A DNA stretch of 46,821 bases from a virus, in the IMG/VR virus record IMGVR_UViG_3300045996_000565, positions 1-46,821 of that record; one strand, written 5' to 3'. Positions 18,189 through 34,071 of this stretch are shown piece by piece. The position numbers and the translations under genes are program-made. How positions within the stretch are numbered: the first letter of the stretch is position 1; the number at the start of each line of letters is the position of its first letter. A model generated the notes under the pieces. That model was not told the DNA's origin, did no database searches, and was given only the letters and a program-made list of their open reading frames with translations.

Positions 18189-18208
18189 TGTGTTGTCTCC
18201 AATATCCG

Positions 18209-18269: not shown

Positions 18270-18292
18270 ACATTGCTAGGGGGTAGACGTAC

Positions 18293-18761: not shown

Positions 18762-19050
18762 AGATATCCTTCTCTATGTGCGTTAGGTTTTTGTTTGTCC
18801 GTATCTTATCGCAGCCATAATGTCGCGTCCAGATAAAAACGGACGTAACGTTCGGAAGCTATACCGAAAACCTAAAAAATAATATGCATTTCATTAACTA
18901 TTGCATTCTGCGCGAGTTGGGGGATGTTTCGCGTTGCGTCATGTTGAGGAAAACATTTTAATGTTTGACACGCGGGCAAAGTGCCGATATGTTGTATGGA
19001 ACATCCCGATGGATGTCCAAACATCGGACCTTTATTTACGGGAGCCAGCC
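18762..19050. other. Control region upstream of the rightward operon
   Basis: A 289-bp AT-rich gap with no gene. It contains a 9-bp inverted repeat TTAGGTTTT/AAAACCTAA (18783-18791 and 18867-18875), a CGTCC/GGACG hairpin near 18830-18845, GATGTTT at 18923-18929, the promoter at 18965 and a GAACATC half-site at 18999. Probably the main rightward regulatory region. Confidence 0.5.
18965..18993 (+). promoter_or_regulatory. Strong rightward promoter
   Basis: TTGACA (18965-18970), exact consensus -35, 17-bp spacer, TATGTT -10 (18988-18993). Start near 19000, about 50 nt before the first gene. A GAACATC half-site (18999-19005) and GATGTCC (19012-19018) lie on the start site, suggesting repression by the same protein as at the RHH switch. 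Confidence 0.7.
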
Positions 19051-19329
19051 ATGCGAAACACCCCTTACACAATGCAAGATTGCCCGGAACATGCCCTTGC
19101 CGACGGCCCGTGCCGCACCTGCGAGCCCCAGGCACCCGACGCGCGTCTCGCCCGTGCCGTCGCCCGTGAGCAGACTATCCGGCGGGAGATTGCCGCGCTG
19201 CGGGCGCTGGCGGATGCGAGCCCGGAATGGCGTCCGCACTTCGTCAAGCAGGCCGGCGTGCTCGAAGGCGAGTTGTTCGATGCGTGCATGAAGGTTGCCG
19301 TGTGCGAGATGGTCGCGAACGGCGAATGA
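19051..19329 (+). CDS. Small early protein with Cys motif (92 aa)
   Basis: First gene after the rightward promoter; ATG 19051 with GGGAG upstream. N-terminal CPEH and CRTC segments could bind zinc (TMQDCPEHALADGPCRTC); the rest is a charged helix ending in AGVLEGELFDACMKVAVCEM. No family recognised. Likely an early takeover or accessory protein. Confidence 0.65.
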   Translation: MRNTPYTMQDCPEHALADGPCRTCEPQAPDARLARAVAREQTIRREIAALRALADASPEWRPHFVKQAGVLEGELFDACMKVAVCEMVANGE

Positions 19330-19385
19330 TTAGCGGCTCGTTGCCGCCGCCGCGTCTCGATTCGGACCGTTGCAAGGAGAATGTC

Positions 19386-19652
19386 ATGAATGGCGAATTT
19401 TGTGGAATTTGTGGACGGTTCAGCCTTGGCCGGTGCACTGGTCTGCGATGCCTTACGGCTGGGAAAACATCCTTTACGGATGCTCAGCGTGTGGCGATTG
19501 CTAAGTACGAATCCAAAATTCCTGAGATGCGTGAAGAGATGGCAAGGGCTGACCGTAGCGACCGCGAATCGTGGGTCAACTGCATCGAGCAGGATGCCAT
19601 TATGCGGATGTACGAGCGGGAACTTGCTGAAGCGTTTGGAGTGACCTTTTGA
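19386..19652 (+). CDS. Small zinc-finger protein (88 aa)
   Basis: ATG 19386 with AAGGAGA 8 nt upstream. N-terminal CGICGRFSLGRCTGLRC gives four cysteines in a compact zinc site; the rest is a charged helix with QRVAIAKYESKIPEMREEMA. Unknown role in the early operon. Confidence 0.65.
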   Translation: MNGEFCGICGRFSLGRCTGLRCLTAGKTSFTDAQRVAIAKYESKIPEMREEMARADRSDRESWVNCIEQDAIMRMYERELAEAFGVTF

Positions 19653-19688
19653 AACCACCCCCCGCGAGGGGCTTACAGGAGATAGAAC

Positions 19689-20009
19689 ATGGCACGTAAA
19701 CCGAAAGACAAGGAACGCACGGCGGGGGAGCTGGTGGAGTTGCGGACGCAACTGCTTGCACACCGGGAGCGGATGGCGAACGACATCGAAATTATCGCCA
19801 AGGCCGTCCGGGTGAATTCGCAGATGGATGATGCGTGGGCTGGCGTCACGATGGATACCGCGTGCGAGCTTCGCGACAAGGTGCAGCAGTTAGTCTTCAC
19901 CAACGCCGCGATTCGCAGCCTCGACACCTGCATCAAAGTGGCGCAGATCAACGACACCGGCAAGTACACGTTCGACTTGAGCGGCTACGAAATCGGCTTC
20001 ACGGAATAA
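19689..20009 (+). CDS. Helical hypothetical protein (106 aa)
   Basis: ATG 19689 with CAGGAGA upstream. Starts with a basic MARKPKDKERTAGELVELRT helix and continues with long amphipathic helices, ending in a short strand-like YTFDLSGYEIGFTE. No cysteines or membrane segment. No family recognised. Confidence 0.65.
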   Translation: MARKPKDKERTAGELVELRTQLLAHRERMANDIEIIAKAVRVNSQMDDAWAGVTMDTACELRDKVQQLVFTNAAIRSLDTCIKVAQINDTGKYTFDLSGYEIGFTE

Positions 20010-20014
20010 CCACC

Positions 20015-20092
20015 CCCCGCGCGTCGCGGGGCTGACAAAACTTGAAGCGGGTATTGGCTCCTGCTCCTCACGCCCGGTAGGTGAAGCCGGGC
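20015..20092 (+). other. Structured leader upstream of 20110
   Basis: The 100-bp gap holds two hairpins: CCCCGCG/CGCGGGG (20015-20031, 7-bp stem, 3-nt loop) and GCCCGG/CCGGGC (20072-20077, 20087-20092). The first follows the previous stop directly. A related CCACCCCCCGCG start is seen at 19655. Probably RNA processing or partial termination between early genes. Confidence 0.45.
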
Positions 20093-20109
20093 AACTAAGG
20101 AGACTGACA

Positions 20110-20451
20110 ATGAAGGAAGCACTGGACAACCTGCAAACGGCGGTAGCGACACTGGGGCACCTTGGCACCCTGTTCGTGGAATGCAACGCGGTCAGCTACG
20201 ACCACTTCACGGACCGCAGGGTCGAGACTAACTGGCGGGTGTCGCTGGTCTACTCGAACAAACTGAATACTGAGTGCGAGCAGGCGGTGCGGCCCACGTT
20301 CGCGGACGCCCTGGCCGAAGTGGAACGGCTGGTCATGGAGCGGGAGCAAAAACTGCGGACGGTGGAAGCGATCATCCCGGAGGACGATGACGGCGGCAAG
20401 CGGCTTGAGGCGGCGGAACTGGAAGGCTTCACGATCAGGACTAGCGAGTAA
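20110..20451 (+). CDS. Hypothetical protein (113 aa)
   Basis: Soluble, mixed alpha/beta protein beginning with a helix (MKEALDNLQTAVATLGHLG), then a strand-rich middle (FTDRRVETNWRVSLVYS) and an acidic C-terminus (PEDDDGGKRLEAAELEGF). AAGGAGA-like site upstream. No family recognised. Confidence 0.65.
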   Translation: MKEALDNLQTAVATLGHLGTLFVECNAVSYDHFTDRRVETNWRVSLVYSNKLNTECEQAVRPTFADALAEVERLVMEREQKLRTVEAIIPEDDDGGKRLEAAELEGFTIRTSE

Positions 20452-20461
20452 GGAGAAGCAC

Positions 20462-20866
20462 ATGCATTTCCCCAACACGCAAATCGACCCCGTAATGGCA
20501 TCCATCCTTGGCGCTTTCGCCATGCTGCCCAACGCAGGCCCGTCGCCGCTGAAGGTGCCGGTGCCGTCGCCGCGCGTGCTGTACCGCAAGCGGCTGCTGG
20601 ATAGCTGGGAGGACATCATTGTGGGCGTCATCAACAACAACCTGGAAGTCACGCCCGACGACGACGGGCTGCGTCAGGGTGAAATCCTGGTAGGCGCGAC
20701 GCTGACGCTGGAACTGCAAGGCGATGAGTTGAGCGGCTACTACGCCAGCGGGAAGCCGAAGACGCTGTACGGCTGGAAGGGCGACCACGCATGGCGCGGC
20801 GAGGTGCTGAGCGCGAAGCGGACGCGGCAGGTGCTGGAACTGCAAATTGAGGTTGAAGAGGAATGA
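20462..20866 (+). CDS. Hypothetical protein (134 aa)
   Basis: ATG 20462 with AAGGAGA upstream. The C-terminal half is beta-rich and acidic (GEILVGATLTLELQGDELSGYY, RTRQVLELQIEVEEE); the middle has RVLYRKRLLDSWEDIIVGVI. No family recognised. Its stop overlaps a possible 15-codon ORF. Confidence 0.65.
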   Translation: MHFPNTQIDPVMASILGAFAMLPNAGPSPLKVPVPSPRVLYRKRLLDSWEDIIVGVINNNLEVTPDDDGLRQGEILVGATLTLELQGDELSGYYASGKPKTLYGWKGDHAWRGEVLSAKRTRQVLELQIEVEEE

Positions 20867-20910
20867 GAATCGTGTGGCTGACTGTGCTGGCGACGCTGGC
20901 GATGTGGTAA
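20863..20910 (+). CDS. Possible hydrophobic leader peptide (15 aa)
   Basis: ATG 20863 overlaps the upstream TGA by 4 nt with GAAGAGGA before it. Reads MRIVWLTVLATLAMW then TAA, which shares its last base with the next ATG (20910). Could be a translational coupler or small membrane peptide; could also be chance. Confidence 0.35.
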   Translation: MRIVWLTVLATLAMW

Positions 20911-21221
20911 TGGAGAATGCGATGTTTGTCTACTTGAAATCAGAACCGGGGCTGTGGACGGTCGGGCACTACGGCGGCAACAGCAAGTGGGTTGCCGAGT
21001 CCGACCACGACAGCGAGAAGGAAGCCGCTGCCCGCGTGCATTACCTGAACGGCGGTGCGGATGCCGACCTGCTCGCGGCCCTGCGAGAACTCGTGCTGCG
21101 TGCCGAGGATGCCGACGACCAGGAATACGCCGGGATGCAGGAGAAGTCGCCAGAGCTTCAGGCGGCAATGACTGCTGCCCGTGCTGCCATCGCGAAGGCG
21201 ACGGGCGGGGGTGGCGCATGA
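20910..21221 (+). CDS. Hypothetical protein (103 aa)
   Basis: Start ATG 20910 overlaps the TAA of the 15-codon ORF; ATG 20922 has a better-spaced GGAG and is an alternative (99 aa). N-terminal MFVYLKSEPGLWTVGHYGGN is strand-like, as in phage proteins of the 'DUF/short aromatic' type, then a DADLLAALRELVLRAE helix and Ala-rich tail. Unknown function. Confidence 0.65.
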   Translation: MENAMFVYLKSEPGLWTVGHYGGNSKWVAESDHDSEKEAAARVHYLNGGADADLLAALRELVLRAEDADDQEYAGMQEKSPELQAAMTAARAAIAKATGGGGA

Positions 21222-21433
21222 GAATTGTGTTCTCAGTGCAGTACGGCGTGCCGTGTGTAGTGGCGGAAGCAGGCGACACCGCAGACGACATCCTTGAGTG
21301 GTGCAGCGAAGAGGGTGCGGTGCTGGACCACGGCGACGGCGATGAGTTTGTGGTCGAACTGCGGCCCGATATCGGCCCCGAACTGTACACCGAGGCGGCT
21401 ATCAGGCGGTCATTGCCAGCGGGTGGCGCATGA
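21218..21433 (+). CDS. Small acidic hypothetical protein (71 aa)
   Basis: ATG overlaps the upstream stop by 4 nt. Strand-like MRIVFSVQYGVPCVVAEAGD, then an acidic run (HGDGDEFVVELRPDIG). Compact single-domain protein; no family recognised. Confidence 0.6.
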   Translation: MRIVFSVQYGVPCVVAEAGDTADDILEWCSEEGAVLDHGDGDEFVVELRPDIGPELYTEAAIRRSLPAGGA

Positions 21434-21651
21434 AACGCAAACGCAAACGCGCGGTGCGGGTGTACGAGAGCGAGGCATTTGTTCGAGTCTATGGACGAGG
21501 CGAGCCTGAGCTTTGGATGAAATATGTAGGCACAAACTTGGGCCGAACGTTGACCACGGAAGATACCTGCATGGCTCAACGTTTCCCCCGTCTCACCGGC
21601 CCCGCCCTTGCCGCGTGGCTTCGCGAGCACCCGAAACCGAAAGGGAAATGA
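21430..21651 (+). CDS. Small basic hypothetical protein (73 aa)
   Basis: Begins MKRKRKRAVRVYESEAFVRV, then GTNLGRTLTTEDTCMAQRFP; overall basic and likely nucleic-acid or protein binding. 4-nt overlaps with both neighbours. Confidence 0.6.
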   Translation: MKRKRKRAVRVYESEAFVRVYGRGEPELWMKYVGTNLGRTLTTEDTCMAQRFPRLTGPALAAWLREHPKPKGK

Positions 21652-22394
21652 AGATGACAACGGCGACGAAAGAGCGGCCCATCCTGTTCAAGGACGAGAT
21701 GGTGCGGGCGATCCTGGCGGGGACGAAGACGCAGACGCGGCGGATCGTCGGCATCGGCAACAGCACGGTCAATGGCTCGCGTGCCAAAAAGGAATGGTGG
21801 GGCGAACTGAACTTTGCAGACGCCACCGCCCGCACGCAATCCACCATCTTGCAATACTTTGCGGGCAAAGATGCCCCGCATGACCTGCATCTGCGGGTGC
21901 CGCGTCCCGACGATGAAACCTTTCACCGCGTGCGGCCTGAGTGGGATGAGGGCGACCACCTATGGGTGAAAGAGGGCGTCATCCAGATCGGCCACGAGCG
22001 AACAGGCCGGAATGGGCAATACCTCTGGCCGAAGTTCAGCGACGAAGACGGGCGACGGTGGTTTGACGGGCGATGCTTCTACACCGCAGACATGAAGTAC
22101 AACGACCAGCGTTTTGACGAGCCGCACGGCACGCTGAACAAGATGTTCATGCCCCGCTGGGCGTCGCGAATCACGCTGGAGGTTACCGGCGTGCGCGTCG
22201 AGCGGTTGCAGGACATCAGAGAAGCGGACATATGGGCAGAAGGATGCTCATTGGGTGACCGCGATTTGATTGAAACAACGCAAGACCCTTTAACGTGGTA
22301 CCGCGACCTTTGGGAATCCATCAACGGCAAAGGCTCGTGGGCGGCGAATCCTTGGGTATGGGTAATCGAATTCACGAAAGCAGGTGCCGCATGA
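21648..22394 (+). CDS. ASCH-domain protein
   Basis: A 248-residue protein of a widespread phage/prophage family. The N-terminus KERPILFKDEMVRAILAGTK plus TQTRR, the middle WDEGDHLWVKEG, and the end MPRWASRITLEVTGVRVERL with LWESINGKGSWAANPWVWVIEF are its signature blocks. ASCH domains are PUA-like and thought to bind RNA; related enzymes hydrolyse modified nucleosides. ATG 21648 overlaps the previous stop; ATG 21654 is an alternative. Early-operon position suggests a host-interaction role. Confidence 0.85.
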   Translation: MKMTTATKERPILFKDEMVRAILAGTKTQTRRIVGIGNSTVNGSRAKKEWWGELNFADATARTQSTILQYFAGKDAPHDLHLRVPRPDDETFHRVRPEWDEGDHLWVKEGVIQIGHERTGRNGQYLWPKFSDEDGRRWFDGRCFYTADMKYNDQRFDEPHGTLNKMFMPRWASRITLEVTGVRVERLQDIREADIWAEGCSLGDRDLIETTQDPLTWYRDLWESINGKGSWAANPWVWVIEFTKAGAA

Positions 22395-22546
22395 CCCACC
22401 CCCCGTACAAGCCCGGCCAGGGCCGCACGCCCGCCGACGCGGCGCAGCAGCCGGTGGCAGCGGTAACCGAATGGACGATTGATGTGGCGGTCGCATGGCT
22501 GCGGCTGCTGAGGAAACTTAGCAGAGTGAAAGGACGGACGGTATGA
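22391..22546 (+). CDS. Small hypothetical protein (51 aa)
   Basis: Overlaps both neighbours by 4 nt. Proline-rich N-terminus (MTHPPYKPGQGRTPADAAQQ) and an amphipathic helix TEWTIDVAVAWLRLLRKLSR with a basic end. Could bind membrane or a protein partner. No family recognised. Confidence 0.55.
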   Translation: MTHPPYKPGQGRTPADAAQQPVAAVTEWTIDVAVAWLRLLRKLSRVKGRTV

Positions 22547-23352
22547 GCACGGAACTGAACGGCATTATCGAAAAGCTGACGGCGCTGCGGGATGATCGGG
22601 ATACGCTGGCCGGGCAACTGGCAGACCTGCGGGCGGATGCCAAGCGGTTCTGCGAGGAACGCGACGCCGCCCGCGCCGAACTCGCGACGTACCGGGCGCT
22701 GATGCCGGAGGTGCGGCAATTAGCACTGATGGCAAAGGACTGCGTTGACGACCGTGTGAGCCAATCCGAGTTTGTCGCCACATGGGATAACTACTTCACT
22801 TTGACAAGTCTGGACGTTCTCCTCGCCAAGCTGCCACCGGAGCAGCCGGTGGAGCAGCCCGCGACTGCCGAGCCGAAGCCCGTGATTCATTGCAACCACA
22901 GCGGCAGCACGGTTTGCGGCGAGTGCCGCGACGCGACTGCCGAGCCGAAGCGGGTGCGGGAGTGGCGGAATGAGACTGAAGGCGGTTTGTACTGGGCAGA
23001 GTACCGCTGGGATGGTGATAGCATGTGGTTCAGAAGTGATCGTGGTCATGGTTGGCTTGCAACAGACAGGACAATCAGTCAGGTAGCGAGCTTGCGTAGC
23101 TATCGCGAAACCACGCCACAGCCTGCGAAGCTGAAGCCAACCCCGCCCGCGACTATTGAGCCGAAGCAGTATGACGATGGTAAAGGTGGGAAAGTTACGA
23201 CAACACTGATTGCCGAAACCACGCCGCAGCCCGCACCCGTCGCGGGCAACGTGCCGCTGACGCTGGTCGGGCCGGCGTCGCTCAACGGGAAGACGGCGAA
23301 GCTTTGGGTGGATGATTGCCGGTGGGCGACGGTGGAGGTGCGGGCGTGCTAA
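22543..23352 (+). CDS. Coiled-coil protein with proline-rich repeats
   Basis: A 269-residue protein. Residues 1-60 are a coiled coil (IIEKLTALRDDRDTLAGQLA...). A repeat unit based on ATAEPK occurs three times (near 107, 131 and 203) around a CNHSGSTVCGECRDA cysteine segment and a WRNETEGGLYWAEYRWDGDS domain. TTPQPA also repeats twice. Likely a modular early protein; no function assigned. Confidence 0.7.
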   Translation: MSTELNGIIEKLTALRDDRDTLAGQLADLRADAKRFCEERDAARAELATYRALMPEVRQLALMAKDCVDDRVSQSEFVATWDNYFTLTSLDVLLAKLPPEQPVEQPATAEPKPVIHCNHSGSTVCGECRDATAEPKRVREWRNETEGGLYWAEYRWDGDSMWFRSDRGHGWLATDRTISQVASLRSYRETTPQPAKLKPTPPATIEPKQYDDGKGGKVTTTLIAETTPQPAPVAGNVPLTLVGPASLNGKTAKLWVDDCRWATVEVRAC

Positions 23353-23729
23353 AGCCATCCGACCTGCCCGCCGACCTGCGCGAACGCATGGGACTTGAAC
23401 CCAAGCGGCACAAGTACAACGTCAGCCCCCGCGAGATGCGCACCATCGACGGCATAACCTTCGATTCCAAAGCTGAGATGCACCATTACCGCAAGCTCAA
23501 GGACATGCAGGCACAGGGGCTGATCCGGTACTTTTTGAGGCAGGTGCCGTTCCATCTGCCGGGCAACGTGGTCTACCGCACGGACTTCATGGTGGTCTAC
23601 CCCGACAACAGAATCGAGTACGTGGATGTGAAGGGCATGCGCACGGCGATGTACAAGCTGAAGCGCAAGCAGGTGGAAGCCCTGTACCAGGTGAAGATTG
23701 TGGAAGTGACGAAAGCGAGGACTGTATGA
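23346..23729 (+). CDS. DUF1064 PD-(D/E)XK nuclease-like protein
   Basis: A 127-residue protein starting at GTG 23346 (GGAGG upstream), overlapping the previous stop. FDSKAEMHHYRKLKDMQ, then YRTDFMVVYPDNRIEYVDVKG gives the E...D...E/DxK pattern of Holliday-junction-resolvase-like nucleases. DUF1064 proteins are frequent in phage replication/recombination regions. Probably cleaves branched or single-stranded DNA. Confidence 0.8.
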   Translation: MLKPSDLPADLRERMGLEPKRHKYNVSPREMRTIDGITFDSKAEMHHYRKLKDMQAQGLIRYFLRQVPFHLPGNVVYRTDFMVVYPDNRIEYVDVKGMRTAMYKLKRKQVEALYQVKIVEVTKARTV

Positions 23730-24175
23730 CACCCGAAGAGGCGGCACAATCCCGCATGGCATCAATCGGCGGCAAGATTCCGGCTGAGGAATCCGACGAA
23801 GGATTCCTTGCGGCGGTGACGGCACCGGACGCCCTGCACCAGCAACTGCGCGAGGCTGAGGCGAAGGCGGCGGCGTGCAGCGTGGCATTAGAGGCGTTTC
23901 TCAATTGGCATGGGGGGCTTATCCCGTGCCGCGATTTCGTGAAGCAATACGGTATGCCACCGGACAATATCGCTACGCTTGAGAGGTTTATTAACTACGG
24001 ACAGGCTGCCCTTGCCGCCCTGCCCGCCCGCGCTACGGCTATGCTTGCGGTGGTCGAGGCGGCGGATGTGTGGAACAAGGCGAAGCGCGGCACCGACCAC
24101 GGCGAATCGTTCTGCCACGCGAGCGATGCCCTGTCTGCTGCGGTCGCGGCGTGGCGGAAGGCGGGTGGCAGGTGA
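23726..24175 (+). CDS. Helical hypothetical protein (149 aa)
   Basis: Alanine-rich helical protein; residues 1-60 are coiled-coil-like (LHQQLREAEAKAAACSVALE), the rest amphipathic helices (FINYGQAALAALPARATAML). ATG overlaps the previous stop by 4 nt. No family recognised. Confidence 0.6.
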   Translation: MTPEEAAQSRMASIGGKIPAEESDEGFLAAVTAPDALHQQLREAEAKAAACSVALEAFLNWHGGLIPCRDFVKQYGMPPDNIATLERFINYGQAALAALPARATAMLAVVEAADVWNKAKRGTDHGESFCHASDALSAAVAAWRKAGGR

Positions 24176-24387
24176 AACTGTTTATTTCTTATGCCGTCAT
24201 GGAACCGAAAACTCACATCTGGTGCTTCAGCAATATTGATTTCTTGGCGGATGGCATTCAGGACATCACGGGCGTCCGCTACATCGAACGGCGGATTGCG
24301 GAGCAGTTGGGCGTGTCTTCTGATTTCGTGAAAATCATCGGATGGCAACCGTTCTATGAGGCGACGGAGAGGGGGGCGGGGAAGTGA
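24172..24387 (+). CDS. Small hypothetical protein (71 aa)
   Basis: GTG start overlapping the upstream stop by 4 nt. Starts MKLFISYAVMEPKTHIWCFS and continues with GVRYIERRIAEQLGVSSDFV, a mixed alpha/beta fold. Unknown function. Confidence 0.6.
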   Translation: MKLFISYAVMEPKTHIWCFSNIDFLADGIQDITGVRYIERRIAEQLGVSSDFVKIIGWQPFYEATERGAGK

Positions 24388-24734
24388 AAGACGCAGACCT
24401 TGCATCGCGCGTAATGTGGATGAAGCAGGTATTAGCCGCCGCAGAAAATGCCATCCGTCGCTATCGCTGCCAGCACATCCGCATTGCCGACGATGGCGAC
24501 CCGCTGCCGCTGCTGGACCTGTTGAGCATCTACGACCGGGACGGCACCACGAAGACGGGGCAGGACGAGATGGAACTGCTGGTGGACGCGGTATGCGGCG
24601 ACATCCTGAACACGGACCCGGAAGCACGCAAGGCGATTGTCGATGAGTGGTTTGCTAAAGATGCATGGGATAAAGCAATGGCTGCGATTGGTGCCGAAGC
24701 CGCTGACGACGACGCCTTCCGGCGGGGGGTGTAG
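24384..24734 (+). CDS. Acidic helical hypothetical protein (116 aa)
   Basis: GTG start coupled to the previous gene. Acidic, mostly helical (MKDADLASRVMWMKQVLAAA, DEMELLVDAVCGDILN, AMAAIGAEAADDDAF). No family recognised. Confidence 0.6.
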   Translation: MKDADLASRVMWMKQVLAAAENAIRRYRCQHIRIADDGDPLPLLDLLSIYDRDGTTKTGQDEMELLVDAVCGDILNTDPEARKAIVDEWFAKDAWDKAMAAIGAEAADDDAFRRGV

Positions 24735-24763
24735 GGATGGTGACGCCCCAGAAAGGACAACGC

Positions 24764-25015
24764 ATGAAGACGGCAACCCGCTCGAGGCTGGCGGTGGAGG
24801 GCGTGCCCCTTCTCCGTATGAAAGAGGAGCATGTGACAACGGCGCTCGCGTGCAGCCGCTCCCACCTTTGGGCTAAGATCAGCACCGGCGAATACCCGCC
24901 CCCCGACAAGACCGACGTTGGCAACCGCTGGGACTCGGCAACGCTCCTGGCGTGGTATGAGGCCGGATGCCCCAAGTTTGCCGACTGGTATCCATCGTGG
25001 GAAGGACGGCGCTGA
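24764..25015 (+). CDS. AlpA-like excisionase / HTH
   Basis: An 83-residue MerR/AlpA-type HTH protein: VTTALACSRSHLWAKIST is the recognition helix region and WDSATLLAWYEAGCP the family's C-terminal piece. ATG 24764 is chosen over 24737 because AAAGGA lies 8 nt upstream. It precedes the integrase by one base, so it is probably the directionality factor (Xis) that bends attP/attR for excision. Confidence 0.75.
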   Translation: MKTATRSRLAVEGVPLLRMKEEHVTTALACSRSHLWAKISTGEYPPPDKTDVGNRWDSATLLAWYEAGCPKFADWYPSWEGRR

Positions 25016-25016
25016 C

Positions 25017-26207
25017 ATGGCGTACATCTACAAAGATGCTCGAGGCCGATACCGGATCCAGTACACCGACGCTGCCGGCAAGCGCCGGGACGCGAAGGGG
25101 TTCACCGACCTGAAGCAGACCAAGGCAGAAGCCGCCCGGCTCGAGGACCGCACCACCAAGCAGAAGCGGGGCATCTTTGACCATGACGCCGAAATAGCCG
25201 CCCAAGCTGAACGCCGCGCCCTATCACTTCACATTGATGAATGGCGGAATCATGTCGCCGCGTCTGGTGCGGATCCGCAGTACGCCCATCAGCAGCACGA
25301 GCGGGTACACCGGATCCTGTGCAACCTGCTGGGGTACACCAAACTCTCGAGCATTCGCACCGAGGATGTACAGGCGACCGTGAACAGCCTCATGCAGGCT
25401 AAGGAGCGGGCAATCAGCCAGCAGACCGCCAGCCACATCATCCAGGCCCTCAAGCAGTTTGGGCGGTGGCTCTGGAAGCCTTCCCGCCGTGCGCGCGCCC
25501 CCATGCTGGACGAACTCAAGAAATACACCGTGACGGACCAGAAGCGCCCCCGTGCGGAATACACCCAAGAGCAGCTATTACGGCTGCTCGAGCAGGTGGA
25601 GGGATCCAATGAACGCCGATTCAACATCACCGGCCCCGACCGCGCCATGCTGTACCGGCTCGCCATCGCCACGGGCTTCCGCCGCAGAGAGCTTGCCAGC
25701 CTCACCAAGGCGTCGTTTGACTTGGACACAGGCACCGTGACGGTTATCGCAGGCAAGGCCAAGAACAAGCGGGAAGCCGTGCAGGCGCTGCCCGTGGAAC
25801 TCGTGGGCCTGCTCCACCCCTGGCTCGAGGGGAAAGCCAAGGGAACCCCCCTATTCAACGTCCCCCAGCATTCCGCCCGGATGATCCGCAAAGACCTCGA
25901 GGACGCCGGGATTGAGATTCCCGACGATGGCAAGTCTCGAGACTTCCACTGCCTCCGTCACACGGCGATAACGAATTGGGTCCGCAACACGACCAATGTG
26001 AAGGTAGCGCAGGAACTAGCCCGGCATTCCGATATCAAACTGACCATGCGGTACACCCACACGACCGACGCCGAACGGCGGGAGACGATAGCCCGAACTG
26101 CAAATGCGCTGCGACTGGTGCGGCCACGAGACGACAAATACGGACAAAGTAAGGAAGGGGAAAGTTCGGAAAGCTCGAGCAAACAAGGGGGCGGGAGTGC
26201 CGATTAA
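25017..26207 (+). CDS. int: Tyrosine integrase
   Basis: A 396-residue tyrosine recombinase. An N-terminal arm-binding strand region (MAYIYKDARGRYRIQYTDAAG) and SAM-like core-binding domain (to about 180) precede the catalytic domain: Arg in ATGFRRREL (about 222), HCLRHT (310-315), ARHSDIKLTMRYTHT with His near 337 and nucleophile Tyr near 345. The Ser-rich tail is acidic. It lies directly before attP in a tRNA-Ser, as expected for prophage integration. Confidence 0.93.
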   Translation: MAYIYKDARGRYRIQYTDAAGKRRDAKGFTDLKQTKAEAARLEDRTTKQKRGIFDHDAEIAAQAERRALSLHIDEWRNHVAASGADPQYAHQQHERVHRILCNLLGYTKLSSIRTEDVQATVNSLMQAKERAISQQTASHIIQALKQFGRWLWKPSRRARAPMLDELKKYTVTDQKRPRAEYTQEQLLRLLEQVEGSNERRFNITGPDRAMLYRLAIATGFRRRELASLTKASFDLDTGTVTVIAGKAKNKREAVQALPVELVGLLHPWLEGKAKGTPLFNVPQHSARMIRKDLEDAGIEIPDDGKSRDFHCLRHTAITNWVRNTTNVKVAQELARHSDIKLTMRYTHTTDAERRETIARTANALRLVRPRDDKYGQSKEGESSESSSKQGGGSAD

Positions 26208-26240
26208 CTGTCGTATCTGCTGGCGTTTACAGCCACTTAA

Positions 26241-26302
26241 CGGAGAGAACGGGATTCGAACCCGTGGTACGGTTATAAACCATACACCGGTTTAGCAAAC
26301 CG
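26241..26302 (-). other. attP core: 3' half of tRNA-Ser(GCU)
   Basis: Read on the minus strand this is the anticodon stem-loop (26288-26302, anticodon GCU at 26294-26296), long variable arm (about 26266-26287), T-arm with GTTCGAATC (26249-26265), acceptor 3' strand and discriminator G (26241). The D-arm and 5' acceptor strand are missing; homology ends at the anticodon stem, where crossover usually lies. No CCA is encoded. It abuts the integrase stop, so it is the phage attachment core, not a working tRNA. Confidence 0.88.
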
Positions 26303-26314
26303 ATTACGATTTTC

Positions 26315-26346
26315 TTGTAACGATTGGCTGATGTGTCTGTTATAAT
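26315..26346 (+). promoter_or_regulatory. Extended -10 promoter for the cargo genes
   Basis: TGTTATAAT at 26338-26346 is a perfect TGnTATAAT extended -10; TTGTAA at 26315 is a badly spaced -35 (20 bp). Transcription would start near 26353, just beyond attP, so in the prophage it lies within phage DNA and can stay active. Confidence 0.55.
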
Positions 26347-26401
26347 TTCGACGTTCTGGCGAATCTGCAAATACACTGCTTCTAAAAACGGAGGTCTAGT
26401 C

Positions 26402-26893
26402 GTGCGGAACAAGAGGAAGAAGCTGATATCGAAGTCTCATAAACCCCCTCCCGCCTGCCTCGAGGACATCCCCAACCTCCGCATGTTCACTCGCACCCCC
26501 GGCTATGTGTACTTCCTTGTCGATGGGAGCCGGGTGGTTTACATCGGGCAGACCACCAACATTTGCCATCGCCTTCGACAGCACAAGCGGGACAAAATGT
26601 TTACGCAGGTGTGGGTGTTGGAGGTGGACGAGGATCGGCTGGACGAGGTGGAAGCCCACTACATCCAGAAGATTCGCCCCTGGTACAACGGCGGCACCGC
26701 CCTCGCCACTGTAGCGGCCCGCAAGAAAGACCTTGGATCCCGCTCGCTGTGCCGTGCTCGCCCTGAATTCCTCGAGGTCTACGTGCCGCCCTCAGCCCGC
26801 AATCAGTGCTACACGATCACGGGCGGGCACACCCTTAGAATAGACCCCTATCGCGGCACACCGACGAAGCGGGCATCTAGTCGGCAAAGCTAG
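26402..26893 (+). CDS. GIY-YIG nuclease-domain protein
   Basis: A 163-residue protein. Starts at GTG 26402 with GGAGG 7 nt upstream, better than any upstream start. The GIY-YIG core is PGYVYFLVDGSRVVYIGQTT then a conserved ICHRLRQHKRD, and the metal-binding Glu is in DEVEAHYIQ. The C-terminal half (YVPPSARNQCYTITGGHTL) is of unknown type. It has its own promoter next to attP. It may be a homing-type or prophage-defence nuclease. Confidence 0.8.
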   Translation: MRNKRKKLISKSHKPPPACLEDIPNLRMFTRTPGYVYFLVDGSRVVYIGQTTNICHRLRQHKRDKMFTQVWVLEVDEDRLDEVEAHYIQKIRPWYNGGTALATVAARKKDLGSRSLCRARPEFLEVYVPPSARNQCYTITGGHTLRIDPYRGTPTKRASSRQS

Positions 26894-26972
26894 GTTTTTG
26901 CCTGCCCTGCCGCTACAGAACCGCGTTATCGCCCACGGGAAACGCCTTTCGATGCCCGACGAATCCCGTCAT

Positions 26973-26999
26973 TACCCCTAACAGACCTTTGCGGCGCGC
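26973..26999 (+). repeat. Repeated leader element, copy 1
   Basis: Shares TACCC..AACAGACC followed by GGCGCGC with 27350-27375. GGCGCGC can pair with GCGCGCC near 27016-27022 to form a hairpin upstream of the next gene. Both copies precede small plus-strand genes. Confidence 0.45.
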
Positions 27000-27042
27000 T
27001 GATTTTTACCGCGCGCCAGTAGACCCCTTTTTGGAGACGATG

Positions 27043-27339
27043 ATGGAAAAGGACGCCTTTGCAAGACGTATGTACCGCAAGATTGAAGACCATGAGATGG
27101 ACCTTGAAAGCGCTAAAGATGGGTTTCTCCGCGCGTGCGGCTGGGATCATCGTTGCGACTATCCGGGGTCGCTGTGGTTGTGGAGCAAGGCGCTGCCAGA
27201 TGGCCGCATTGTGGCTGTAGGCCGCGAAACCGCCATTCACATGGAAGAGGCCAGCAACGAAAGTATTTATGACCCACCCGAAGAGAATGCCCACGGCGAA
27301 ACGCCTGAGCAGCAGATGCGGTCCAATGGCATAATGTAA
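27043..27339 (+). CDS. Hypothetical cargo protein (98 aa)
   Basis: ATG 27043 with TTGGAG upstream. MEKDAFARRMYRKIEDHEMD is a charged helix, followed by a CGWDHRCDYPG segment and an acidic C-terminus. Lies in the group past attP, likely cargo expressed from the prophage. No family recognised. Confidence 0.6.
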   Translation: MEKDAFARRMYRKIEDHEMDLESAKDGFLRACGWDHRCDYPGSLWLWSKALPDGRIVAVGRETAIHMEEASNESIYDPPEENAHGETPEQQMRSNGIM

Positions 27340-27349
27340 CCCCCCGCAG

Positions 27350-27375
27350 TACCCGAACAGACCCGCCCGGCGCGC
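27350..27375 (+). repeat. Repeated leader element, copy 2
   Basis: Second copy of the element at 26973. Here GCGCGGG follows, giving a CCCGC/GCGGG-type hairpin just upstream of the zinc-ribbon gene at 27404. Confidence 0.45.
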
Positions 27376-27403
27376 GGGCAGAACTTTGAAAGGAGAGACA
27401 GAC

Positions 27404-27616
27404 ATGAAGAAGACGGTCAAACAGCCACCCAAGCATGAATTCACCCCATCATGCCCGAAGTGCAGCGAGCTTGATTTGTGGTCGCTGGGGATTATTCTGC
27501 CGCACGTCCGCGGCTACAGGTTGTGTGCCTATGAGTGCCCGGAGTGTCGCCACAAGTTCGTTTATGGCGAACTTGTTAAGAAACAACCCTCGTCGCGTCC
27601 GACGACCAGGGCGTAA
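27404..27616 (+). CDS. Zinc-ribbon cargo protein (70 aa)
   Basis: ATG 27404 with AAGGAGA upstream. CPKC near residue 17 and CPECRHKF near 45 form a zinc ribbon; the N- and C-termini are basic. One of at least six small CxxC proteins in the genome. Unknown target. Confidence 0.65.
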   Translation: MKKTVKQPPKHEFTPSCPKCSELDLWSLGIILPHVRGYRLCAYECPECRHKFVYGELVKKQPSSRPTTRA

Positions 27617-27635
27617 CGTATGCAGGAGACATGAG

Positions 27636-27854
27636 ATGCTACCCCTCGAAATGATGATTGACCTTGCGTGGCTGCGTGGACTTCGGGCGTACACCGAAGG
27701 CAACCACAACAACCCGTTCGTGTATGAAGCGAAGGTTGACAGCATATGGCTATCAATGCTCGGTTCGCACCTGTACGACGCCGAAGAAGCGTGGCAGCGT
27801 GGACACAACGCCGCAAGGGACTACCACGATGCGACCGGGCGGATTCTCGGTTGA
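27636..27854 (+). CDS. Hypothetical cargo protein (72 aa)
   Basis: ATG 27636 with AGGAGA upstream. Helical with aromatic-rich segments (MIDLAWLRGLRAYTEGNHNN, EAWQRGHNAARDYHDATG). Last plus-strand gene before the convergent leftward operon; no intrinsic terminator is obvious in 27855-27921. Confidence 0.6.
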   Translation: MLPLEMMIDLAWLRGLRAYTEGNHNNPFVYEAKVDSIWLSMLGSHLYDAEEAWQRGHNAARDYHDATGRILG

Positions 27855-27921
27855 CCCACGGGGCGATTCCCAGCCACGCTTCGTGAAGTGGCCTCTGCGG
27901 AGGGCACGGCTAGCGTTGCCC

Positions 27922-28797
27922 CTAAACCTCAACCCACGGCAGATTCGCCGCCCGCACCTGCGGCAAGTGCCGCCATTCCGCCCGCGCCTTCGCGTGCCCG
28001 AAACAGTCCCCCGGCGATACAGCCGGCAACGCCCCCTCCGCGATGCCCTGCTTCACGAAGAAAGCGTTGTACCCGTACCTATTCACGCCCACGAGCCTGT
28101 ACCCCCGCCGCTTGCCCAGCTTGGCATAGGCCGCGAGCGAAGCACTGATGAACACGGGAGTTGTGCCGATATGCAGGAACTTGCCCGCGTCAAACTTCGG
28201 GTCATACGGGACGGTAACGGACAGGTCGGGTCCAAGCATGGTGTTGTACTCGACCACCACCACGGGCGGCTCTATCTTCAACGCCTCCCATATCCAGTAG
28301 TCCACCCCGTCAAGGTCAATGGAGAGGACTTGGATATCCCGGTCGAAGCCATGCCGGGCGAGCAGGTCGTTCACCGTCTCGCGAGCGATCCATGCGTGCT
28401 CGAACGTGGGCGGGTATACGTAGGTCTGGCGGGAGCGCCGGTAATAGTCGCGGCCCCGTTCGACCAGCCGGGCGTCGCCATCCACCAGGAACCCGTCCCA
28501 GCCGTGATTGATAATCAGGTTCGCAGTGTTGCATTCGAGCCCGTCGCCGGCACAGATTTCCACGCACCGCTTGGAGCCCGTGCCGACTATGCCGAGGATG
28601 TAGAGCAGGATCCCGTCCTCGTCGGCTTGGGAATAGACCTTAAACCCAACGTCCTGTAATAGCGGGAACTTATCGCGCATCCGCTGGTAGGCGTGCAGGA
28701 GTTGAATCTGTGCGGCGGCGTTGGGAGCCTCGTACTTCTCTTCCCGCATGGCGATCAGGATAGGATTCAGTAACCGACTGCGCAGCCGCTTGAGCAT
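27922..28797 (-). CDS. FkbM-like SAM methyltransferase
   Basis: A 291-residue protein from ATG 28797 (AAGGGG upstream). KRCVEICAGDGLECNTANL carries the SAM motif I, GFLVDGD is motif II, IQVLSIDLDGVDYWIWEAL then VVVVEYN follow. These blocks are typical of methyltransferases that act on glycans or lipids in polysaccharide gene clusters. It is the last gene of the tail-fibre block, so it may modify host surface sugars or virion glycans; substrate not deducible. Confidence 0.78.
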   Translation of the reverse strand: MLKRLRSRLLNPILIAMREEKYEAPNAAAQIQLLHAYQRMRDKFPLLQDVGFKVYSQADEDGILLYILGIVGTGSKRCVEICAGDGLECNTANLIINHGWDGFLVDGDARLVERGRDYYRRSRQTYVYPPTFEHAWIARETVNDLLARHGFDRDIQVLSIDLDGVDYWIWEALKIEPPVVVVEYNTMLGPDLSVTVPYDPKFDAGKFLHIGTTPVFISASLAAYAKLGKRRGYRLVGVNRYGYNAFFVKQGIAEGALPAVSPGDCFGHAKARAEWRHLPQVRAANLPWVEV

Positions 28798-28866
28798 AGA
28801 GTGTTCCCCTTCAATCGCCATGAAGGGTACGATAGGCTGCGGCAGTGTGCAAACGAAGGGAGCGTT

Positions 28867-29103
28867 ATGGACCTTATCCCCGTGCCCGACCAGCTTCAGA
28901 GAGAGGGGGTACGCAGCATCAATGCCGTCAAATTGCGGCACCTGCTGCACGCCAAGGGCTACACCGTGCCCCAGGTCGCCCGCACGCTGCGGCTGTACCT
29001 GCCGGAAGTGGAGCGGCTGGCGGACGGTGAGGCACTACTGACGGATGCCGATTGGAAAGACCTGTTCGCGAAGATTGCGGCGCTGCCGGATCGTTGGGGC
29101 TAG
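28867..29103 (+). CDS. Small Cro/XRE-like HTH protein, antisense island
   Basis: A 78-residue protein from ATG 28867 (AAGGGAG upstream). Helices LRHLLHAKG, YTVPQVARTLRL and YLPEVERLADG look like a lambda-Cro-type HTH. It is on the plus strand inside the leftward tail block, overlapping the 3' end of the tailspike gene by 4 nt and divergent from the methyltransferase. An isolated oppositely transcribed HTH gene could be expressed in the prophage. Confidence 0.65.
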   Translation: MDLIPVPDQLQREGVRSINAVKLRHLLHAKGYTVPQVARTLRLYLPEVERLADGEALLTDADWKDLFAKIAALPDRWG

Positions 29104-32100
29104 ATGATGCCCACGGTGAGCCACGCGGGGATGTTGCTGCCGCCGGCGGATACGGTGACAGGGCCACCGCCGCCGCCTTCGGGTGTCGGCGCCGCATCCA
29201 CCGCCCCCAGCCGCGAGAGCGTGCCGCGGGTGTTGCCGAAGATGTCGTAGGGCACCATCGAGTGCCACACGCGGTCTTCAATGGCGGCGTCTTCGGAGAG
29301 GTAATTGTCGGTGAAGGTCAACGCGCCTTGCGTGGCCTGCGTGCCCTGTTCGGAGTCGCTGATAAAGTGGTTGTTGGTAAGGGTGAGGGTGGAACCGGAA
29401 GGCCAGCCGGTATTCGACTGCGTGCCTTGCAGGATGCTGTTGCGGACATTGAAGTCCGCAAGGTCGAGCGGGGCGGTGTTCGACATGAGCAGGTTGTTAT
29501 TCAGGATGGCCGACGAGTCAATGACGAAGTTATGTGCCCGCTGCTGGATTTGGGCGAGCGTGCCGGTGTAGCCCACGAGCAGGGTATTGAGTAGCGCCAC
29601 GCTATGGGCGGTGCCGTTCTCGCCCGGCTGAATGAGCATGGGCTGAAAGCCGATGGCGAGGTAGTTCTGAGACACCACCGGACCCACCTGGAAATTGCCC
29701 TGGTCGCCGATCTGGTAGGAGTCGCCGTGGGCTTCCTGCATCATCCAGAAGGTATCGCCCGCCGCACAGTTGACGTTGCCTGACACGGTGATGGTGTGCG
29801 AGGCGTGGACGTAGCCGGTGACGGGGTGCTGCGTCCCCTTGAGTGCGGTCGTGGTGGTGGTCGTGGCAAAGCGGATGTTCTCAATCACACCCGAGGCGTC
29901 CCCGTTGGTCGGGACATCATAGGTGATGGTGGTCACATCCCCGCCACCGTCGTAAGACTTGGATGCCACGGTCTGTACGTCGTCGTAATGGTTTCGCTGC
30001 TGGAGTACCGCCCGGAGGTTCAAGGTATCAGAGGCGGCACAGCCGGAGGCGTCCCCGCCAACAACGATAGTGCCGGCGACAACGTTCGTTTGCCCGATGA
30101 CGGCAGGGAAGGTCTGCCCGTCGAGCGCTCCGCTGGTGAACTCCACGCGGTCGGTATAGGCAAGCGTCTGGTAGGCGTCGCCCTGCGGCATGTTGGAAAC
30201 GGCAATCGTGGTGAGGTTCGTACCGCTGTTAAACGTCGCGCCCGTGACGATGAGTCCATAGGGCATGGAGATGGGGTAGGTAGTCCCGTCGTCCATCGCG
30301 GAGAAGCGGATAGCGAAGCCGTTGAGCATCGTGCCGCCGCCGTTGTGGAAGGCATCGAAGCCGACGACCATGTTGGGGATGAGGTTCCGCAGGTCTTGAG
30401 CCCCGCCCCGGTGAAAGGTCATGCCGACATTCGAGGGTGCGTAGACGCGGCATCCGTTGATGAAGTAGACCCCGTTCGTGGTGTTCTTGAACGGCTGGTG
30501 TGCCACATTGCCGCCGTTGCGCCCGAACTCTGAAAGGGTGCAGGTGATGGTGCAGTTATCGAAGATCAGGGAATCGGACGCGGAGGCCCAAATTTGCCCG
30601 ATGTTGGTCAGGTCAATAGTGACATTGCGGAAGGTAATGGAGGGTGCGTCAATGGCGATTTGCAGGGCGTCGTACCAGCCGCCCGAACTGCCTGAGATGG
30701 TGCGGCGCGTGCCGTCGCTCTGGATGACGACCGGGTATGTGGTCGTGTGCGAGCCGCCGATGACGGTCAGCCCGTCCCCGTCCATCGTAATCGCGATGTT
30801 GCCCGTGAGCGTGATAACGTGCATCGTGTTCGACGGGTCGGTGTCCAGTGCGGTATCGAGGGCCGCGGCGTTGGCAGCGTTGGCCGTGGTCTTAGGGATG
30901 GTGCCGCCGCCATCGTAGAACACGAGGCCGGGCACAAGGCGTTCCAGACCATTGAACGGTTCAACGAGTGCGTAGAACTCATACGCACCGTCTTCGTTGG
31001 GCAGGGTGACGCCCCGGCCCCACCAGTCTTTGCCGCTGGGCTTGAGCGTGCCGTTGTAGGTGTCGTTGGGGGTATCGTTTTCGACGTACCAGCGCACACG
31101 TTTGATGCCGGAAGGGTCGCCGCTGGTGGCGATGATGCTGACCACGCGGTCGCTGCTGGAAGTCATCACCTCGCCCCATGCCCGATCCGGGCTGGACGCA
31201 ATGGCAATGTTGGTAAACCCCGAGCCGTGCGGCGTTCCCGATGCTGTGGGCGGCGTGCCGAACCCGCTGCCTGCGGTGCCGTCATAGCCAGCGTCAACGG
31301 TGGCGGTGGGGTAGGAGGATTCGACTTCAACGACGGTGAATGACAGGTCGCTGGGGTCGGTAAGCTCCTGGTCGTCGTCAAAGGAGATGGTCTGCGGGGT
31401 GGTGGCGCTGGTGGTCCAGTATTCGCCAACGGCAGTTTGCGAACCCGAGAGCGTGACAGTGCTATCGGAGTGCACGCCATCCGAGCGGATGAAGTGGACG
31501 GAACCGTTCGCAGCCGTGGCGGTGATGATGGTGGATGCGGCAAAGGCGGCATCGGCGGGGCTTGGCCCAACGTCAAAGAAACCCTTCTGCCCCGTGTTCA
31601 CGGCGGTCTGACGGGCGGTGGCGCTGAAGCCGGTCGCGGTGGCAAGCGGCAACTGGAAGGCGATGGCAACGCCGAGGTTGAAGCTGGGAGCCGCGCCGTA
31701 GGTCGCCGTAATGGTGATGCTGGTGGTCGGGTCTTCGCTTCCGGCATCCAACGCCCCACCGAGGCAGACGCTTTCGCCGGGCGGGTCGTACAATTCGGTG
31801 TAGGTGTTGGAGTTGGAGTCGGAGAGCGTGGCCTGCACGCCGTTCCACGAGACGAACAGGGCGAGGGTCAACGCCCCGCGTTCGCCGGTGTCGAACGTGG
31901 CAAGGCCGATGTCGGTTGGGGAATCGGTGTCGGGCGTGGCAGACGTTGCAGCCGCGAGGAAGTCGGCAGCGTCCAGCACCAGCACGAACCACCGGGGGTT
32001 TGACTGCGAGATAGTGAGTTCAACGGCAACATCGGTGCCGCCCGCCCCGACCACCTTGTAGAAAGTGTAAATGGAAAAGCGGCTGGTGTAGTTGGCGAAC

Positions 32101-32270
32101 GAAGCCAGCGTCATGGCCGCCCCGCCAACCGTGGCGGAAGGTTCGGTAGCACCGGCATCCGCGAAGCCGATGATGCAGACGACTTTGCCAGCGGTCAGCG
32201 TGGGGATTTCGTGGCTTGCTGTCGCGCTGATGTAATCAGAGTAGTAAAGAACCTGGTCGAGGAAGGCCAT
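29100..32270 (-). CDS. Tailspike/tail fibre, beta-helix type
   Basis: A 1056-residue virion protein, the largest in the genome. Residues 1-210 are a beta-rich N-terminal domain likely attaching it to the tail (FYKVVGAGGTDVAVELTISQ); 290-450 another beta domain. From about 470 the ALDTALDTDPSNTMHVITLT segment leads into a right-handed parallel beta-helix with repeated turns (ITFRNVTIDLTN, SLIFDNCTITCT, YFINGCRV, LTLTNNHFISD), as in tailspikes that bind or cut surface polysaccharide. The end has a Gly-rich linker and small C-terminal tip. Overlaps upstream gene as TAATG. Confidence 0.82.
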   Translation of the reverse strand: MAFLDQVLYYSDYISATASHEIPTLTAGKVVCIIGFADAGATEPSATVGGAAMTLASFANYTSRFSIYTFYKVVGAGGTDVAVELTISQSNPRWFVLVLDAADFLAAATSATPDTDSPTDIGLATFDTGERGALTLALFVSWNGVQATLSDSNSNTYTELYDPPGESVCLGGALDAGSEDPTTSITITATYGAAPSFNLGVAIAFQLPLATATGFSATARQTAVNTGQKGFFDVGPSPADAAFAASTIITATAANGSVHFIRSDGVHSDSTVTLSGSQTAVGEYWTTSATTPQTISFDDDQELTDPSDLSFTVVEVESSYPTATVDAGYDGTAGSGFGTPPTASGTPHGSGFTNIAIASSPDRAWGEVMTSSSDRVVSIIATSGDPSGIKRVRWYVENDTPNDTYNGTLKPSGKDWWGRGVTLPNEDGAYEFYALVEPFNGLERLVPGLVFYDGGGTIPKTTANAANAAALDTALDTDPSNTMHVITLTGNIAITMDGDGLTVIGGSHTTTYPVVIQSDGTRRTISGSSGGWYDALQIAIDAPSITFRNVTIDLTNIGQIWASASDSLIFDNCTITCTLSEFGRNGGNVAHQPFKNTTNGVYFINGCRVYAPSNVGMTFHRGGAQDLRNLIPNMVVGFDAFHNGGGTMLNGFAIRFSAMDDGTTYPISMPYGLIVTGATFNSGTNLTTIAVSNMPQGDAYQTLAYTDRVEFTSGALDGQTFPAVIGQTNVVAGTIVVGGDASGCAASDTLNLRAVLQQRNHYDDVQTVASKSYDGGGDVTTITYDVPTNGDASGVIENIRFATTTTTTALKGTQHPVTGYVHASHTITVSGNVNCAAGDTFWMMQEAHGDSYQIGDQGNFQVGPVVSQNYLAIGFQPMLIQPGENGTAHSVALLNTLLVGYTGTLAQIQQRAHNFVIDSSAILNNNLLMSNTAPLDLADFNVRNSILQGTQSNTGWPSGSTLTLTNNHFISDSEQGTQATQGALTFTDNYLSEDAAIEDRVWHSMVPYDIFGNTRGTLSRLGAVDAAPTPEGGGGGPVTVSAGGSNIPAWLTVGII

Positions 32271-33619
32271 TAGTTGCCGCCTTTCAAAGTGTCAATGTGA
32301 ATGATGGGCCGCAGACCCTTGCGTTCCGCGTCCTCGACCCACCCCGGATCATCCCAGTTGGTGTGAACCGTCAGCGTAGCCTTGGGCGTGACGGCGCGGG
32401 GAATGTCATAGTTTCCACGCGAATAGGGATATTCCATCGTGATGCCGGTCGTCCATGCGGCGATGTCTCCGCTGGTTTCCGGCAGTATGCTGATGCCCGC
32501 CCGCTTCCAGTCGGCCAACAGCCGCAGCCATTCATGCGAGTTGCGCGGCGAAGGCTCCCCCCCGGTATCCCAAAAAGCGAGGGTCACTCCCCGCTGCTTC
32601 AGGGCTGCCATCAGGCGGGCGTTGTAGGCTCGGTTGGCTCCGAGGTCCAGTTGCAGGTTGGTGTGGCTGTAGCGGGCGTCTGTGAGCAGGGCGACCCTAT
32701 CTGCCTTGAGCGGTGGGGATACAAAGGGATTAACCAGGACTCCAACGGCAATGGGGGGGTTGGCTGGCAGGGCCTCAAACCATGAGAAGTGAGGCGGGTA
32801 CGGATCGTAAAAGTAGCTGCTGCCATCGGGAGGACTCCACTGTATGAATGCCGCGGCCCCGCCAGCCTTAGCCTTTGCCAGTGCTGCGGTCATGTCTTCC
32901 GGGTTGGTCCAGTTACTATACGCGATGGGACCGGGCGGCAGGTCAAGCGTGGCTTCGGGGATATTGAGGTCGCGCATGAACGGCATGAGCCGGTACTGCC
33001 TGAAATACGACCAATGCGCTGTCGGCCCGCCCTGCATGATGCGGTAATCGGCAGTCAACGTAATTGTTTCGCCGGGGTCCAGGTCCAGCCGATACCGCAG
33101 GAACGGGTTGAACCACCCCTTGCCAGCGAACCAGAAGCAGGAGACAGGCTTTAGCTGGCGGTTCAGGTAGGTCAGTGCCAGCGTGTCATCGCCGCTGTAG
33201 ACCGTCACGATGGGAGAATAGGCCGGTCCCGGCCAGTTGCCGGTCGAGCCTTGCCCCCCATCGGCCACGCTGCCGCCCCTGAGCGGGCTGTAGATGCGCG
33301 TATCCGGGGGCGTGCCGACTTCGGGCAGGCGCAGGTCAATCGAGTCCAGCCGCTGCGTCCAGCCGTTCGTGATGGTGAACTCGAACAGCAGGCCGGTCGC
33401 GACAAGTTCGGTCCTGCATTCCACGCGCACGCCGCCTGATTGCGAGTGCTGCACGACGCGCGTCACGCGCTGGCCGAGTTGTTCGGCGCTGCGGCGGAAC
33501 TGCACCGGCTGCCCGTCCAGAACGGCGGCGTCTGCTTCCGTGCCTTGGCGGGGGGCTGAGGCGGGGGCGAAGGTGAAGCCGAGGCAGGCGAGGGCGAGGA
33601 TGGCGAGGAGGAACCTCAT
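32270..33619 (-). CDS. Secreted glycoside-hydrolase-like TIM-barrel protein
   Basis: A 449-residue protein starting at ATG 33619 (ATGA overlap with the upstream gene). MRFLLAILALACLGFTFAPA is a signal peptide. Residues about 25-260 form a beta-sandwich (FEFTITNGWTQRLDSIDLRL, YRLDLDPGETITLTADYR). The C-terminal part looks like a TIM barrel (AAFIQWSPPDGSSY, FAWF-like and ALKQRGVTLAFWDTGGEPSP with DTGGE as possible catalytic acids, then ISILPETSGD). It may be a secreted polysaccharide-degrading enzyme, possibly serving as a signal-secreted endolysin. Family not recognised. Confidence 0.65.
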   Translation of the reverse strand: MRFLLAILALACLGFTFAPASAPRQGTEADAAVLDGQPVQFRRSAEQLGQRVTRVVQHSQSGGVRVECRTELVATGLLFEFTITNGWTQRLDSIDLRLPEVGTPPDTRIYSPLRGGSVADGGQGSTGNWPGPAYSPIVTVYSGDDTLALTYLNRQLKPVSCFWFAGKGWFNPFLRYRLDLDPGETITLTADYRIMQGGPTAHWSYFRQYRLMPFMRDLNIPEATLDLPPGPIAYSNWTNPEDMTAALAKAKAGGAAAFIQWSPPDGSSYFYDPYPPHFSWFEALPANPPIAVGVLVNPFVSPPLKADRVALLTDARYSHTNLQLDLGANRAYNARLMAALKQRGVTLAFWDTGGEPSPRNSHEWLRLLADWKRAGISILPETSGDIAAWTTGITMEYPYSRGNYDIPRAVTPKATLTVHTNWDDPGWVEDAERKGLRPIIHIDTLKGGN

Positions 33620-34071
33620 GCGGCCTGCCACCCCATATCTTTGACGGTGTTGATGAGGATGGCTTTCAGATCGTCCGAGTAGTCGAACCGCTTCTGATTG
33701 ATTTCGATGGACTTCAAGATATCCCCGTTCGCGTGCCGCATGGTTGCCGCCTTCCAATCGCACAGCATTTCCAGAACATCCAGTAGGTTCATGCCGCGAA
33801 TCCCATTGGAGAAATACTCGGGGTGGTGAGAGTTGTTGGCGTAGTGGTGTTGAAGTGCAGGCCCCATCGCCGCCAGAAATCCCTTGTACTCATCGCTCCC
33901 ATAGGTGCTTTCTTTGAGCTTTGGCGTGAACTCATCGAACACCTCAACCTCTGGCGACACGAGCTTTGATGCGTCATGCGCCTGTTGGCGATGTAGCAGG
34001 CCCTTGACGGCTTGCCCCATGAAGTCCCGCACAGTGTTGATGTGCTGATAGGTTTCGATGCGTGAGTCCAT
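33616..34071 (-). CDS. DUF5662 protein
   Basis: A 151-residue protein matching DUF5662: INTVRDFMGQ at the start, HDASKLVSPEVEVFDEFTPK, then PALQHHYANNSHHPEYF and MNLLDVLEMLCDWKAATMRH. The His/Asp pattern (HDxSK, HH, HH, D) suggests a metal-dependent HD-like phosphohydrolase fold. Frequent in phages; function unknown. 4-nt overlap with the next gene. Confidence 0.85.
   Translation of the reverse strand: MDSRIETYQHINTVRDFMGQAVKGLLHRQQAHDASKLVSPEVEVFDEFTPKLKESTYGSDEYKGFLAAMGPALQHHYANNSHHPEYFSNGIRGMNLLDVLEMLCDWKAATMRHANGDILKSIEINQKRFDYSDDLKAILINTVKDMGWQAA

Follow-up and report, generated by a model that had tools for sequence, protein, structure and literature searches.

A fragment of a serine tRNA gene lies behind the integrase gene of a metagenomic phage, which raises the questions of whether this fragment is the phage attachment site (attP) and whether it identifies the host. 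tRNA genes are the usual sites of insertion of temperate phages into the host chromosome, the tRNA being left unbroken.

Phage genome and setting of the fragment

The window analyzed here is the whole phage contig of 46,821 nt (IMGVR_UViG_3300045996_000565, positions 1..46821), a separate virus record outside any host genome. It begins and ends with the same 127 bases, the form in which a circular sequence emerges from an assembler; hence, the contig is circular and the putative attP is intact and unintegrated. The window contains genes for a terminase, portal, capsid, primase-helicase, exonuclease, and integrase and is a complete, circular, temperate phage genome. A tyrosine integrase of 396 aa is encoded on the plus strand at 25017..26207 (PF00589, 7e-20; phrog_1, 2e-43), with an alternative TTG start at 24918, and the gap between its stop and the tRNA fragment is 34 bp. 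On the other side of the fragment is a GIY-YIG gene (26402..26893, plus strand; PF01541, 5e-5) whose GTG start lies behind GGAGG. The large terminase gene (6719..8365, minus strand; PF20441, phrog_9) was utilized as the query for finding related phages. No DNA-level similarity of the window to phage records was detected, and no planctomycete phage was among the best matches listed in the phage-record searches.

Anatomy of the tRNA fragment

The putative attP core (26241..26302, minus strand) corresponds to a tRNA-Ser(GCU) gene from position 28, in the anticodon stem, through the 3′ discriminator base. It comprises the last two thirds of the gene and lies between the integrase end at 26207 and the GIY-YIG start at 26402. 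On the minus strand, the anticodon stem-loop TCGGT-TTGCTAA-ACCGG (26287..26303), delimited from the sequence and from host alignments, has its anticodon GCT at 26296-26294. The 5′ edge of the core is the second base of the anticodon stem, so that the core reads C GGT, followed by the loop TTGCTAA, the stem ACCGG, and then TG. The variable arm TATGGTT-TAT-AACCGTA (26268..26284), with a 7-bp stem, was recognized from the sequence and by comparison with host tRNAs and is separated by CC from the T arm ACGGG-TTCGAAT-CCCGT (26249..26265), which folds into a perfect stem. The 3′ acceptor strand TCTCTCC and the discriminator base G, without CCA, complete the fragment (26241..26248), and this strand pairs with GGAGAGA of the host. 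As read directly from the sequence, the D-arm and the 5′ acceptor strand are absent. The initial annotation, a minus-strand 3′ part of tRNA-Ser(GCU) without a D-arm behind the integrase, was thus borne out base for base.

No tRNA was called in the window by ARAGORN or by Rfam at the gathering score, the tRNA finders being silent because the 5′ part is missing. The core folded better than all of 200 shuffles (z, −3.2), contains the only T-loop consensus in the 46.8 kb, and has a next-best ungapped match inside the window of only 36/62. Arm-type repeats were not evident in the surroundings of the core. A permissive Rfam scan matched 26241-26295 with RF04351 (54 bits), the Plastid-psbl-rps4 3′UTR family. 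Judged from its sequence, this family appears to represent an antisense 3′ part of plastid trnS and could give wrong annotations to tRNA fragments like that at window 26241-26295.

Matches to complete planctomycete tRNA genes

A search with 66 nt around the site against 392 planctomycete genomes gave matches in 229 of them. The best match, 57/62 (92%; E, 2e-19), was to a complete tRNA-Ser(GCT) gene, and the blast match began exactly at 26302 and ended exactly at 26241, confirming the limits originally assigned to the fragment. Matches of 92% were detected in four genomes; the three besides the best are of the same family and share an identical core. Such identity to real tRNA-Ser(GCT) genes, with an E value of 2e-19 in one genome, indicated that the core is not due to chance. 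All five mismatches to the best host tRNA are within the variable arm. The difference that ends the matches at 26302 is at position 27 in the anticodon stem (26303), which is T in the phage and C in the best-matching hosts; crossover is, therefore, expected 3′ of position 27. When the 5′ half of a host gene was joined to the 62 nt of the phage, ARAGORN called a complete tRNA-Ser(GCT) with the three different host halves tried.

A bacterial tRNA-Ser(GCU) gene containing the 62 bp had been anticipated, and this held to the extent of 57/62 in complete genes, with no exact match. Neither the exact 62 bp nor the exact variable arm was present in any genome searched (the 392 planctomycete genomes and a relaxed-core pattern scan of GTDB r220). 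No exact attB was found in a planctomycete or Pirellulales member genome, the best being 92%, and scans of IMG/VR detected neither the exact 54-base core nor shorter core patterns. In L074, L075, and L077, from the best-matching family, the variable arm (TGTACGG...CCGTACC) is closer to that of the phage and the T arm differs; these nearer arms make an unsampled relative plausible as the host.

Integrated relatives adjoining tRNA genes

The 26 nearest integrases found in the 392 planctomycete genomes were 32 to 39% identical to that of the phage. A complete tRNA or tmRNA gene adjoined 22 of these integrases (20 convergent and 2 on the same strand), and 4 were without one. Among these planctomycete relatives (L078-L103), the convergent tRNA gene was located at most about 330 bp from the matched integrase domain, and the window shares the convergent orientation with 20 of the 26. 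The targets were tRNA-Lys, Met, Ser-UGA, Arg, Glu, Cys, Asn, and Trp and tmRNA; tRNA-Ser(GCU) was not a target among the nearest integrase relatives. A phage with a 54% identical terminase exhibited the same integrase-tRNA arrangement at tRNA-Glu(CTC). As the arrangement is the same, the different targets do not refute the attP reading.

Five elements on long contigs were checked for direct repeats. In all five, a second copy of the 3′ part of the tRNA, in direct orientation and starting at tRNA position 25 to 30, lay 12 to 30 kb away, at the opposite end of the element. The repeats consisted of 36 nt (94%) of tRNA-Lys at a distance of 20.2 kb, 62 nt (100%) and 59 nt (100%) of tRNA-Ser(UGA) at 24.8 kb and 12.2 kb, respectively, and 47 nt (100%) and 51 nt (100%) of tRNA-Met at 16.7 kb and 30.4 kb, respectively. 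The 62-nt repeat is that of the G308 element, in tRNA-Ser(TGA). A prophage of this phage in tRNA-Ser(GCU) was not found in the genomes searched, and no relative of the GIY-YIG gene, which had been predicted for the far end of related prophages, occurred in any of the loci compared. Planctomycete prophages with related terminases (29 to 42% identity) contained no close integrase. In IMG/VR, a single-protein integrase scan detected no loci, and a two-row-alignment scan detected four, among them the already known L024 record and L037.

Several other features were observed in these loci. Among L079-L103, 17 of the 20 convergent loci have an integrase frame that stays open up to the tRNA and continues into it in antisense; the C terminus would then be encoded across the attachment core, and its sequence may not be the same in the circular and the integrated element. 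An ATGTD motif is common to many of these integrase tails. In L037, a related integrase is followed at 2509-2576 by half of a tRNA-Arg(UCG)-like gene in the orientation of the integrase, and this half is the 5′ rather than the 3′ one. A 48% terminase relative, the G006 record L029, has a tRNA-like sequence at 15984-16117 on the minus strand (Rfam tRNA, 37 bits), which seems to include a long insertion or variable region and may have the anticodon TCA. The G008 record L036 has, near 2235 on the minus strand, what looks like the 3′ half of tRNA-Asp(GTC) without a D-arm, possibly another attP. An element in tRNA-Ser(GCT) of G402 (L046, G402:C1:5185741) was rejected as a counterpart, as it has an integrase of another subfamily and a 19-bp 3′-end repeat 74 kb away, indicative of another subsite. 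The G402 genome has an 89% core match, and its tRNA-Ser(GCT) seems to be a shared target.

Proposed integration and alternative explanations

The 62 bp are almost certainly the attP core of the phage, an ordinary anticodon-loop (type A) tRNA attachment site. This reading is based on the exact-end 92% matches in four genomes (E, 2e-19), the recognition of the joined host half and 62 nt as tRNA-Ser(GCT), the adjacency of 22 of the 26 nearest integrases to tRNA or tmRNA, with repeats in all five elements, the same arrangement at tRNA-Glu(CTC) in the phage with a 54% identical terminase, and the circularity of the contig. Against it stand the failure to find, in the genomes searched, either the exact 62 bp or a prophage of this phage in tRNA-Ser(GCU) and the identity of only 33 to 39% to the nearest integrase relatives, all of which use other targets. 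We infer from these data an active integrase and the exact crossover bases, as well as the host. The tyrosine integrase would recombine the attP core with the anticodon-stem-loop region of a host tRNA-Ser(GCU) gene, of which the host would retain the 5′ end (the 5′ acceptor strand, the D-arm, and the first anticodon-stem base). This end and the phage-borne 3′ part would form a rebuilt, complete tRNA-Ser(GCU) gene convergent with the integrase gene and carrying the variable arm of the phage, and the displaced 3′ part of the host gene would mark the far (GIY-YIG) end. That integration would rebuild the host tRNA-Ser(GCU), as proposed at the outset, is supported by the exact-end matches, the ARAGORN calls on joined halves, and the repeats of the relatives.

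Derivation of the fragment from a phage-encoded tRNA-Ser gene, once whole and deprived of its 5′ part by chance, is highly improbable. Phages do carry tRNA genes, and the distant relative L029 has tRNA-like sequences; however, the truncation is at the anticodon stem, which is also the starting point of the repeats in five integrated relatives, the fragment adjoins the integrase, the position of the attachment tRNA in relatives, and every remaining stem pairs, whereas decay would not preserve pairing. Even less probable is a function of the stems other than as attP, either in an antisense or regulatory RNA or in a bidirectional terminator separating the integrase and GIY-YIG genes. The strong structure (z, −3.2) and the position between two genes are compatible with such an element, but neither exact agreement with a tRNA, including the GCU anticodon, nor an end at the discriminator base would be required of it, and the direct repeats of the relatives would be left unexplained.

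A higher, though still low, probability attaches to the same attP serving in a host from another phylum with a similar tRNA-Ser, the integrase having been acquired from planctomycete elements. None of the planctomycete genomes searched matched the variable arm, conservation of the tRNA-Ser 3′ part extends across phyla (as in the 54-bit match to the plastid-type RF04351), and the similarity searches of host genomes with the tRNA and the integrase covered Planctomycetota alone, with no control phylum for the specificity of these two signals. Nevertheless, the integrase, the terminase relatives, and the tRNA converge on Planctomycetota, and the terminase scan of GTDB was unrestricted by phylum.

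Assignment of the host

The terminase scan of all GTDB genomes, of any phylum, detected one relative, in a Bythopirellula MAG, and the best tRNA matches belong to the same order, Pirellulales by NCBI taxonomy. More-distant terminase relatives were present in 9 of the 392 genomes, and four of these (G226, G354, G360, and G402) were also among the best tRNA matches. As the tRNA, integrase, and terminase all point to Planctomycetota, the host is, in our judgment, very probably a planctomycete. Pirellulales is the likely order, a judgment held with far less assurance, because the best tRNA matches and the sole GTDB terminase relative fall in the order of Bythopirellula. The initial annotation regarded the fragment as a key to the host group, and as the only one; the former proved valid for the phylum, which is well supported, and for the order, which is likely, while the latter was mistaken, since the integrase and terminase also have relatives in planctomycetes. 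The distinctive variable arm does not name the host, as it is the very part matching no genome searched, and the host signal is carried by the conserved part of the core and by the integrase. We suggest only tentatively that the host is an unsequenced planctomycete lineage with this tRNA-Ser(GCU) variable arm or that the arm is the phage's own.

Comparison with known systems and significance

The tRNA attachment subsites of tyrosine integrases were reportedly treated by Williams in 2002, in work cited in the paper on the Islander database. The islands in that database include those in tRNA genes with the anticodon-loop subsite "A," for which a 3′ repeat at the far end is a signature (PMC4383910). 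As in the window, type A sites have the 3′ part of the tRNA next to int and a core extending from the anticodon stem to the 3′ end, and the scheme proposed here is the same, with restoration of the target gene and a displaced fragment marking the far end. There is no difference in principle; here, the tRNA concerned is Ser(GCU), with a new variable arm, and an integrated copy was not found. Hosts of uncultured phages were assigned from tRNA attP sites by Mizuno et al. in 2013 (PMC3861242), with fragments of 39 to 46 bp in their examples. As here, metagenomic phages with an integrase and a tRNA fragment were matched to host tRNAs, but exact matches were required, whereas the best match here is 57/62, with no exact host; those authors caution that the tRNA-attP method alone reaches only phylum or class (PMC3861242). 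The planctomycete elements (L078-L103) resemble the window in having a related integrase (33 to 39%), a convergent tRNA, and, in the five checked, a far-end 3′ repeat. They differ in their tRNA targets and in that the integrase frame mostly enters the tRNA, whereas that of the window stops 34 bp before it.

The site is an attachment site of known type, genuine and ordinary, and its practical value is host assignment: it links a complete circular temperate phage to Planctomycetota. According to the survey, a family of planctomycete integrases has made repeated use of the anticodon-loop site, in tRNA genes of many different kinds. Seryl-tRNA synthetase recognizes tRNA-Ser by its variable arm; should the present arm belong to the phage itself, the tRNA-Ser(GCU) produced in each lysogen would bear a variable arm of phage origin. 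The attP and integrase constitute a concrete pair and a candidate integration tool for Pirellulales.
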